From Candidatus Nitrosopumilus sp. (GTDB taxonomy: Archaea; Thermoproteota; Nitrososphaeria; Nitrososphaerales; Nitrosopumilaceae), in NCBI GenBank assembly GCA_028343855.1, contig JAOLZN010000010.1, positions 1-47,325 on the forward strand: a DNA stretch of 47,325 nucleotides. The letters run 5' to 3'. A program made the position numbers and the translations under genes. This document shows positions 5,519 to 12,367 of the stretch, in pieces. Under the pieces are notes generated by a model. That model saw only the letters and a program-made list of their open reading frames with translations. It had not been told where the DNA came from and did no database searches. Numbering within the stretch: the stretch's first letter is position 1; each line of letters opens with the position of its first letter.

Positions 5519-6439
5519 ATGGCAATTATTAAAAATAAATCTCCTGTTTTATTTTTCTACAATAATTCTAAAAAATGGTTAATGAATATTTCAAAAAAAG
5601 AATCCCTTCACACTCACATTGGTGTTCTTAAACATGCTGATGCTATTGGTAAAGAATATGGTTCTCGATTGATGACAAATAAAGACAAGTACGTGTACCT
5701 GCTTGAACCCACAATGTATGATTATATAATGAAAATTCAACACGGCACTCAAATTGTATATCCAAAAGATCTTGGTTACATTGCTGCCCGTGCAGGAATT
5801 CAGGATGGTCAAAAAATCTTGGAAATAGGAACTGGAAGTGGTTCTTTAACTTCTTTTGTTGCAAGTATTGTAAAACCTCGTGGGCATGTTTACACTTTTG
5901 ATGTTGATGAAAATTTTATGAAAATTGCAGAAAAGAATATTCGCAAATCTGGTGTTTCAAAATATGTCACTCAGCATAATTTGGATTTAAAAACTTCTAA
6001 AGAAATTCCTGTTACTGACATGGATGTTGCCTTAATTGATCTTGGTGACCCCTGGGTGGTTATTCCTAAAGTTAGACAGATGTTAAAAGGCAGTGGTTCA
6101 ATATTTGCAATATGCCCAACAATGAATCAATTAGAAAAATTAACCATGGCTTTAGTTGAAAATGAATTTACTGATATTGAATCCACTGAACATATCATAA
6201 GAACAATTGAGGCTAGAGAAGGAAAAACTAGACATTCATTCCAAGGTATTGGGCATACTACTTACTTGTGCTTTGCAAGAAAAGCATTCTTTGGACCTAA
6301 GACCAAAACAACTAAAGCAAAAACAACTAAAGCAAAAACAACTAAAGCAAAAACAACTAAAGCAAAAACAACTAAAGCAAAAACAACTAAAGCAAAAACA
6401 ACTAAAGCAAAAACAACTAAAAAAAGCACAAAAAACTAG
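5519..6439 (+). CDS. trmI: tRNA (adenine-N1)-methyltransferase, TrmI family
   Basis: A 306-residue protein. Residues about 1-70 form the N-terminal beta domain; about 80-235 are a Rossmann methyltransferase with motif I ILEIGTGSGSLTSFVAS, motif II VYTFDVDE, and VALIDLGDPW as motif IV. TrmI enzymes use S-adenosylmethionine to make m1A at position 58 of tRNA, and in archaea also m1A57. A lead-in YPKDLGYIAARAGI matches the family. The catalytic domain ends near residue 258. After it comes a Lys/Thr/Ala tail made of seven perfect KTTKA units, absent from typical members, which could help hold tRNA. Confidence 0.9.
   Translation: MAIIKNKSPVLFFYNNSKKWLMNISKKESLHTHIGVLKHADAIGKEYGSRLMTNKDKYVYLLEPTMYDYIMKIQHGTQIVYPKDLGYIAARAGIQDGQKILEIGTGSGSLTSFVASIVKPRGHVYTFDVDENFMKIAEKNIRKSGVSKYVTQHNLDLKTSKEIPVTDMDVALIDLGDPWVVIPKVRQMLKGSGSIFAICPTMNQLEKLTMALVENEFTDIESTEHIIRTIEAREGKTRHSFQGIGHTTYLCFARKAFFGPKTKTTKAKTTKAKTTKAKTTKAKTTKAKTTKAKTTKAKTTKKSTKN
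6305..6409 (+). repeat. Seven perfect 15-bp tandem repeats in the trmI tail
   Basis: The unit AAAACAACTAAAGCA is repeated seven times without any base change and begins an eighth copy. It is in frame and encodes KTTKA. Perfect identity at synonymous positions points to recent slippage expansion, so copy number may vary among strains. Confidence 0.9.
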
Positions 6440-9147: not shown

Positions 9148-9311
9148 TCTTATTTTTCATTATTCTCATAAAAAAGATATGGTTTGTTCTATCTTTGTAC
9201 TAGACAATTTTGTTATTTCATGACCTTCTGATCCATTATTTTTAAATTTTAGCCACAAATTTGATCTCTATTGTAGAAAGCCCTTTATTATGTGACAAAA
9301 TTATTTTAAAT

Positions 9312-9908
9312 ATGTCAATGTATATGCCGGGAGCAACTGCTGTTGGAATTACTTTTGATGGTGGTGTAGTTTTTGCTAGTGAGAAAAGAATCGCTTTTGG
9401 TAATTTCCTTGTAAGTAAAACCACTAAGAAGACTTTCTCTATAACTGATAAAGTTGGTGCAACTTGTGCTGGTCTTGTTGCTGATATGCAAATTTTAACT
9501 TTACAAATTTCAGCTCTTGCAAAAATTAGAAAAATGGACATTAAAAGAGATGTTCCTCCAAACACTGTTGCTAAAATGATGTCAAATATGATGTATGAAA
9601 GAAGATACTTTCCATTACTAACACAAGTAATTGTTGGCGGCGTGGTTGATAAACCCGTTATGTATACTCTTGATCCTCTTGGTTCAGTACTTCCTGATGA
9701 ATATGCTGCAGTTGGTACTGGTGCTGAAATGGCATTAGGTGTTTTAGATCCTCAGTTTAAACCAAACATGACTAAAGATGAAGCTATTACTTTGGCAAAA
9801 CATGCAGTGCGTGCAGCAGCTTTGAGAGATTCTGCAAGTGGTGATGGATTAGATGTACTTGTAATAACTAAAGATGGTACAGAAGAATTTACTGAAAGTA
9901 TCAAATAG
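9312..9908 (+). CDS. psmB: Proteasome beta subunit, apparently lacking the catalytic Thr1
   Basis: A 198-residue 20S proteasome beta-type subunit. After a six-residue leader and Gly7 the fold starts ATAVGITFDGGVVFASEKR. Aligned with the archaeal TTTVGI...E17-K/R18-R19 pattern, Glu17 and Lys33 (in KTTKKTF) are present, but position 1 is Ala8 rather than Thr. Later GTGAEMALGVLD and SGDGLDVLVI are typical. The subunit therefore seems non-catalytic, like the second beta subunit of some crenarchaea; an active partner should be elsewhere. Reading Thr9 as Thr1 would need a one-residue deletion. I chose the ATG at 9312, about 25 bases after TTTATTA; TTG at 9261 would add 17 residues. Confidence 0.88.
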   Translation: MSMYMPGATAVGITFDGGVVFASEKRIAFGNFLVSKTTKKTFSITDKVGATCAGLVADMQILTLQISALAKIRKMDIKRDVPPNTVAKMMSNMMYERRYFPLLTQVIVGGVVDKPVMYTLDPLGSVLPDEYAAVGTGAEMALGVLDPQFKPNMTKDEAITLAKHAVRAAALRDSASGDGLDVLVITKDGTEEFTESIK

Positions 9909-10942: not shown

Positions 10943-12367
10943 TCAATCTACTATACAATACGCATAACTGGGTGTCATTGATGGATACATGATATTATTT
11001 CTATCATTTGTGTGTGGCAATCCTAATGTGTGGCCTAATTCGTGAGTCATAATGGTTTCTAGAGTTTTGATATCGTATAATTGAAATTGTCCGTCACAAT
11101 TAAAATCCCCTAATGCCACTTCTACTACACCTTTGCCTAGATGTGCATGTCCTAATACGCCTTCACCAATATCTCTAACTACCCAAGTAATCCAAACATT
11201 TGCGTCCTGTTTTATATTAATAATTTCAAATTTCATTTTAGCATCAAATTCTTTTACTTTCAACTCTTGTTGTCCCCAAAATTGAAATGAATTTTTTAAT
11301 GTGTTTACGTGGTCAAGTGGCAGACCAACTGGTTGTTCATTAACAAATGCTTTGTATTTTATGATATATGTTCCGTTAATAATTTCATATGTTGGATCTG
11401 GAAAATGTGCTGATGATGATTGAACTTGTTGATCATAATTCCATTTATTTTTGTCTCTAAGAAATTTTTTAATTACTTCCTCACTTGGATTTGGAAATTC
11501 TATGTATCGTCTTTCCTTTACCATGTTGTTTTCAATATCTCTTAGATATTTGTTAAATAGAAAATCTTCATACTCTAAATCTTGTTGTGTTTTTTTAACA
11601 TTTCCATCGATTAATTTATTGTCTATTAACCATTGAACATTTTTAAAAAATATTCTGTTTGATGACTGTTCTTTACTCCATATTTCTAAATCTTTTTTAA
11701 TTGCTGACATGCTTTTTAATTCATTTATCTTTTCAACTATTTGTTCATTAGGAACTTTAACCATTTTCTCCTTAATCATATATTCTAAAACATTAAAAAA
11801 TTCTTCATCTGTAATTTTATCAACTATCCACCATTTTGTTGCATCTTCTATCCATTTTGGTAAATTACCTTGGTCATCTGTAAATCCTACTGTCTTACTA
11901 GTTGGTTTGTATGGGTATTTTGAAACAAATTCTTTAATAAACTCCATATAGTTTTTTATCACTTCACTATTTGGTTTTTCTTGCTTAGCTTTATTGAAGT
12001 AGATTAACGCTTCTTGATATTCTCCTAAACTTCCAAAACTCACACCCATTGCGGTGAGTACAGTTGATTCATTTGGATCAATTTGTAATGCTTTATGATA
12101 TTGTTTTAATGCAGATGTATGTTCATCTAAATTATTTAATGATAATCCTTTCATTTTTAATGCTTGAATGTTATCTGGTTGATTTTTCAGAATTTCGTCA
12201 TAGATCATTATAGCTTGTCTGTATTCTCCATTTAGGGTGTGATCTTTAGCTGTTCTGAATGATTCTTTTAATTCATTTTTTTGTGCAAATGCATCTTCAG
12301 TAACAAATAATGAAATGCATAAAATCGGTAAAATTAGATAGATTAAATTTTTTGTTTGTTTAATCAT
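10943..12367 (-). CDS. Secreted TPR and matrixin-like zinc metalloprotease
   Basis: A 474-residue exported protein. Residues 1-28 are a signal peptide ending AFAQ. TPR-like repeats fill about 32-140 (AIMIYDEILKNQPDN, ALKQYHKALQIDPNE, ALIYFNKAKQEKPNS). Two W-rich modules follow (LPKWIEDATKWWIVDKI, and FFKNVQWLIDNKLIDG), of a kind frequent in thaumarchaeal surface proteins. The C-terminal peptidase domain has HELGHTLGLPH with His442, Glu443, His446 and His452, and a Met-turn NIMYPSM. This is the metzincin/matrixin zinc site. It probably acts at the cell surface on proteins; the substrate is unknown. The protein lacks a C-terminal anchor. Confidence 0.85.
   Translation of the reverse strand: MIKQTKNLIYLILPILCISLFVTEDAFAQKNELKESFRTAKDHTLNGEYRQAIMIYDEILKNQPDNIQALKMKGLSLNNLDEHTSALKQYHKALQIDPNESTVLTAMGVSFGSLGEYQEALIYFNKAKQEKPNSEVIKNYMEFIKEFVSKYPYKPTSKTVGFTDDQGNLPKWIEDATKWWIVDKITDEEFFNVLEYMIKEKMVKVPNEQIVEKINELKSMSAIKKDLEIWSKEQSSNRIFFKNVQWLIDNKLIDGNVKKTQQDLEYEDFLFNKYLRDIENNMVKERRYIEFPNPSEEVIKKFLRDKNKWNYDQQVQSSSAHFPDPTYEIINGTYIIKYKAFVNEQPVGLPLDHVNTLKNSFQFWGQQELKVKEFDAKMKFEIINIKQDANVWITWVVRDIGEGVLGHAHLGKGVVEVALGDFNCDGQFQLYDIKTLETIMTHELGHTLGLPHTNDRNNIMYPSMTPSYAYCIVD

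Follow-up and report, generated by a model that had tools for sequence, protein, structure and literature searches.

An alanine-1 proteasome beta subunit conserved across Thermoproteota and its Asn166-bearing catalytic partner in Nitrosopumilus

The beta gene and its active-site positions

The window, by which we mean the whole 47,325-nucleotide stretch of Candidatus Nitrosopumilus sp. analyzed here, carries at 9312..9908 on the plus strand a psmB-type gene for a putatively non-catalytic proteasome beta subunit of 198 amino acids with alanine at position 1, as assigned by PF00227, TIGR03634 and alignment with the Thermoplasma acidophilum subunit. The open reading frame begins with an ATG at 9312 and its stop codon ends at 9908; the N-terminus is MSMYMPGATAVGITFDGGVVFASEKRIAFGNFLVSKTTKK, and the 198-residue product opens with MSMYMPGATAVGITFDGGVVFASEKRIAFGNF. 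In-frame starts are also present upstream of 9312 (TTG at 9261). The ATG at 9312 is supported by the short N-terminal leader that it yields, MSMYMPG (9312..9332, plus strand), which ends in Gly(-1) and is nearly invariant among close relatives (18 aligned orthologs).

The two neighbors of the gene lie on the minus strand and, judged by eye from their translations, are a DoxX-like gene and a TFB gene; neither has an evident link to proteolysis. Elsewhere in the window, the ORF at 5519-6439 resembles a tRNA m1A methyltransferase (also named by eye), and its C-terminus (6207-6439) consists of about nine tandem TTKAK repeats. The product of the ORF at 10943-12367 is predicted to be secreted; it contains TPR-like repeats and a zinc-metalloprotease motif of the metzincin type, HELGHTLGLPH.

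The window protein clearly belongs to the Proteasome family of Pfam, scoring 163.6 bits with PF00227 (cut-off 22.4). Among NCBIfam models it matches TIGR03634, the archaeal beta subunit, best, but its 205.9 bits fall short of the equivalog cut-off of 224. The protein thus departs from a catalytic equivalog of this model in both score and the threonine at position 1.

The original prediction placed alanine at position 1 and called for alignment with the Thermoplasma subunit, and this alignment bears it out. HMMER aligns the window protein, whose N-terminus reads MSMYMPG-ATAVGI, to the T. acidophilum beta subunit (1pma_B) without gaps at the N-terminus, pairing P6-G7-A8-T9-A10-V11-G12 with T7-G8-T9-T10-T11-V12-G13, in which T9 of 1pma_B is Thr1. 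Ala8 (codon GCA, 9333..9335, plus strand) is therefore position 1, Thr9 (9336..9338, plus strand) is position 2, and Gly(-1) is retained; with this gap-free numbering, position p corresponds to window residue p+7. Thr2 is conserved in both beta classes described below and is the only nearby threonine that could be mistaken for Thr1.

The rest of the active site is largely intact. Glu17, Arg19 and Lys33, which had been predicted to be kept, are found at residues 24, 26 and 40 of the window protein in the Thermoplasma alignment. The catalytic-triad position Glu17 (9381..9383, plus strand) is Glu or Asp in 137/137 rows of the non-Thr set (one of them an alpha subunit), Arg19 (9387..9389, plus strand) is present in 136 of these 137 rows, with the alpha row as the sole exception, and the second triad position, Lys33 (9429..9431, plus strand), is present in all 137. 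Gly47 (residue 54), Asp166 (173) and Ser169 (176) are also retained in the window protein, the last two encoded at 9828..9839 (plus strand), where class alignments show that the Thr1 partner from the same genome has Asn166 and Thr169. At 9717..9725 (plus strand), Thr129-Gly130-Ala131 replaces Ser129-Gly-Ser131, so that Ser129 becomes Thr (residue 136) and Ser131 becomes Ala (residue 138); position 131 is Ala in 125/137 non-Thr rows versus Ser in 62/63 sequences of the Thr1 class. Across the non-Thr class, positions 17, 33, 47 and 166 are kept throughout and positions 19 and 169 almost throughout. Gly(-1), found in 130/137 rows of the non-Thr set, is mostly retained in the Ala1 class even though self-cleavage is impossible there. 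The near-invariance of Glu17, Arg19, Lys33, Gly47, Asp166 and Ser169 in a supposedly dead subunit hints at a constraint beyond that of a scaffold.

The proteasome gene set and the distribution of the non-Thr class

A profile search of the source genome (1.2 Mb, 95.7% complete) recovered four PF00227 genes: two alpha subunits (L001 and L004), each with a YQVEYA motif, the window gene, and one Thr1 beta subunit. The original prediction was that the organism needs a second, active beta gene, and exactly one other beta is present in the genome as searched. This gene, L002 (1444-2073 on the minus strand of its locus; contig C47:40798-41427), encodes a beta subunit with the HG|TTTVGI junction, Asp17, Arg19, Lys33 and Ser129, and it scores 227.7 bits against TIGR03634, over the cut-off of 224. 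The second alpha gene, L004 (1408-2133, minus strand, contig C1), is apparently confined to the family of the window genome, which has four PF00227 genes where many relatives have three.

The PAN ATPase model TIGR01242 gave no hit above its cut-off of 500 bits in this genome, the best score being 309. The genome does encode three double-AAA Cdc48-like proteins and one single-AAA protein (candidate unfoldase genes at C23:3184-4788, C23:73174-74721, C1:75757-77328 and C1:159643-160371). Since no PAN surpassed the cut-off and Cdc48-like AAA proteins are present, the unfoldase of this proteasome is probably Cdc48-like.

We collected beta sequences from near relatives, from 28 genomes sampled across the phylum and from 80 close orthologs, and they split into two main classes. 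The Thr1 class comprises 63 sequences, Thermoplasma included. In the non-Thr class (n=136, which omits one alpha row, L186, that was also kept out of the tree), Ala occupies position 1 in 130 sequences and Gly in the other 6, and Thr, Ser or Cys never does; the Gly count includes L207, L214 and L225, whose one-residue alignment shifts show a gap at position 1 and were read as Gly1. The genomes of the phylum from which we read betas contain both classes together. In a tree of 114 rows, with a single euryarchaeal row, a branch with SH-aLRT support of 100 separates the non-Thr betas from all other rows, and all 51 clade members sampled lack Thr1. We infer that Thr1 was lost once, the direction following from the generality of Thr1 in catalytic betas.

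The 80 close orthologs, which come almost wholly from Nitrosopumilus, Nitrosarchaeum and Marine Group I, have Ala at position 1 without exception (codons GCA 75, GCT 5). Pairwise comparison of 10 orthologs with the window gene gave dN/dS values of 0.03-0.09 at dS of 0.33-1.27. The window gene is under strong purifying selection, and the subunit is maintained without a nucleophile. Recent degeneration or a sequencing error would be another way to arrive at Ala1, but nothing speaks for it; with Thr1 missing from 80/80 orthologs and from the 51 tree members, and with dN/dS below 0.1, this explanation is refuted, and we give it practically no weight.

By sequence comparison, the non-catalytic beta class is phylum-wide, extending beyond the crenarchaea, and is ancient and strictly conserved. 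The kind of subunit is already known from Sulfolobus, and the window gene adds a member. What a specialist may not expect is the phylum-wide distribution of a single clade, together with the Asn166 partner described below. Our search of the open-access literature turned up no report of either, though this speaks only weakly for novelty. Proteasomes with two betas, one of them silent, are thus no oddity of Sulfolobus, as they span the sampled Thermoproteota (TACK) lineages.

The Sulfolobus ortholog and the role of the Ala1 subunit

A solved structure is available for an ortholog. PDB entry 6z46 has one kind of beta, in 14 copies, and the Sulfolobales locus L236 is identical to chain H of this entry over about 100 residues and reads EELPATAIGI, that is, Ala1-Thr2. 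We take chain H to be Saci0662, from its non-Thr beta sequence, the 14 copies of one beta in the structure and general background on the entry; the assignment agrees with the biochemistry described next. The window protein is of the same type, with a non-Thr residue at position 1 and a place in the clade that it shares with L236 (SH-aLRT 100). An AlphaFold2 model of the window protein, computed from only 18 near-identical sequences, was discarded (mean pLDDT 40.7), and 6z46 serves in its place.

The Sulfolobus pair has been reconstituted. Saci0662 and the alpha subunit (Saci0613) form an assembled, inactive 28-mer; Saci0909 by itself fails to bind alpha; and the combination of Saci0613, Saci0662 and Saci0909 is active, with Saci0909 as the minority beta (PMC4569737).

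These data bear on whether Thr2 could become the N-terminal nucleophile once the leader and Ala1 are removed, which would leave the subunit catalytic with a one-residue shift. Thr2 is present in every non-Thr1 beta (alpha row excluded), and Anjum et al. noted the equivalent of the catalytic threonine in both Sulfolobus betas, Saci0662 among them, and removed the preceding residues (PMC4569737). However, subunits that rely on Thr1 conserve Thr2 just as well, which makes the conservation of Thr2 structural, and a threonine one residue off is unlikely to sit over Lys33. Further, Saci0662 truncated to its threonine still assembles into 20S particles that are inactive (PMC4569737). That threonine is position 2 in the V4-G5 register, as 6z46_H has one residue before TAIGI, and the inactivity of the truncated particle argues against Thr2 as the nucleophile. 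Reading Thr9 of the window protein as Thr1 is therefore rejected; it is largely refuted for the ortholog Saci0662, and we regard a catalytic role for Thr2 as very improbable.

We instead favor, at a probability of roughly 0.88, the reading that the window gene encodes a structural, proteolytically silent 20S beta subunit and that cleavage is carried out by a second, interspersed Thr1 beta. The proposal that the window gene is the non-catalytic beta draws support from Ala1, from membership in the Saci0662-type clade and from the separate Thr1 beta gene of the genome. The Ala1 beta would fold as a normal beta subunit, take up places in the beta rings, probably the majority, and provide contacts that hold the beta rings on the alpha rings. 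With no N-terminal nucleophile, it would neither process itself nor cut peptides. In yeast, T1A mutants of beta1, beta2 and beta5 show neither autolysis nor cleavage (PMC4792962). Peptide cleavage would depend on L002 (HG|TTTVG) subunits scattered through these rings, and trimming of the 7-residue leader of the Ala1 beta may depend on L002 as well. By orthology to the Sulfolobus pair, the window protein is most likely the ring-carrying structural beta and L002 the active one, and by the same analogy we infer mixed rings in Nitrosopumilus.

Alternatively, the Ala1 beta may form a separate, homomeric and inactive 20S particle, as a storage or decoy form or as a holding chamber for the ATPase, with no mixed rings. 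Alpha and Saci0662 alone do make a stable 28-mer (PMC4569737), 6z46 holds 14 copies of one beta, separate contigs (C2 and C47) carry the two beta genes, and with two alphas in the genus two particle types are conceivable. Nevertheless, the Thr1 beta of Sulfolobus cannot bind alpha alone and needs the inert beta, so that separate particles would leave no active one. We consider this arrangement unlikely.

The Asn166 partner and comparison with known systems

The Thr1 partner of the window protein carries an unusual active-site motif. Where other archaeal betas read RDSASG or a similar sequence, L002 has RNIGTGD, which in a gap-free alignment corresponds to Asn166 and Thr169. Thr169 accompanies Asn166 in 82/82 Thr1 betas that have it, all of which keep Thr1, Asp17, Arg19, Lys33, Gly47 and Ser129. 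This pattern occurs in 15 of the 16 families of the window's order in which the gene was read; the exception within the order, family f13, has Asp166 and Ser169 in 7/7. The other 34 Thr1 betas in the set, which come either from beyond the order or from its accessory classes, all have Asp166, with Ser or Thr at position 169. Our search of the open-access literature on Nitrosopumilus proteasome subunits or on archaeal Asn166 found nothing specific.

An additional Thr1 beta, this one with Asp166, occurs in some members of the order, where its gene is arranged in tandem with an extra alpha-like one (L116, L119, L126). These belong to a third beta class, also seen in the same phylum at L246 and L248, which starts with Met-Thr-Thr (once with Val), so that the start residue abuts Thr1 with no leader; Asp166 is kept, and the tandem arrangement looks like a second complete alpha-beta pair. 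With no more than two betas in the window genome, the Asn166 site is the sole Thr1 site there.

The swap in the Thr1 beta would affect the proton-shuttle residue Asp166, while the inert Ala1 ring-mate keeps Asp166 and Ser169. In yeast beta5, the D166N mutation still permits removal of the propeptide, but activity falls by about 60% and the contact with Ser129 is disrupted (PMC4792962). The Asn166 subunit is the only Thr1 beta found in this genus, whose proteasome thus appears, from its sequences, to run on an altered catalytic site. It is tempting to go further and propose that the main 20S of the order relies on the Asn166-Thr169 Thr1 beta, with an altered center that is probably slower or differently tuned and with rings diluted by silent subunits; we put this forward tentatively, at slightly less than even odds, and the altered chemistry would be its conjectural part. 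The loss of Asp166 in ammonia oxidizers, which are among the ocean's most abundant archaea, offers a natural experiment on proteasome mechanism. It also raises a testable question, as triad and shuttle residues are retained in a subunit without a nucleophile, yet the active partner of ammonia oxidizers has lost Asp166.

Comparison with known systems places the window protein closest to Saci0662, with which it shares Ala1, Thr2, E17, R19, K33, D166 and S169, a short leader and a genome with one Thr1 beta. The two differ in that the Saci0662 leader ends in Pro whereas the window leader ends in Gly(-1), and the partners differ as well, since the Sulfolobus Thr1 beta keeps Asp166 (DSFTG in L222, from the genome of L236) where that of Nitrosopumilus has Asn166. 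With T. acidophilum PsmB (1pma), the window protein has in common the fold family, length, triad positions 17 and 33, oxyanion Gly47 and Asp166/Ser169, but it lacks Thr1 and has Ala for Ser131. The eukaryotic beta3, 4, 6 and 7 are similar in being silent and in sharing rings with Thr1 subunits, which leaves fewer active sites per ring. Their active sites are more degenerate, whereas the window subunit keeps nearly everything but the nucleophile. An archaeal proteasome with a silent subunit would be a prokaryotic parallel to the mixed beta rings of eukaryotes.
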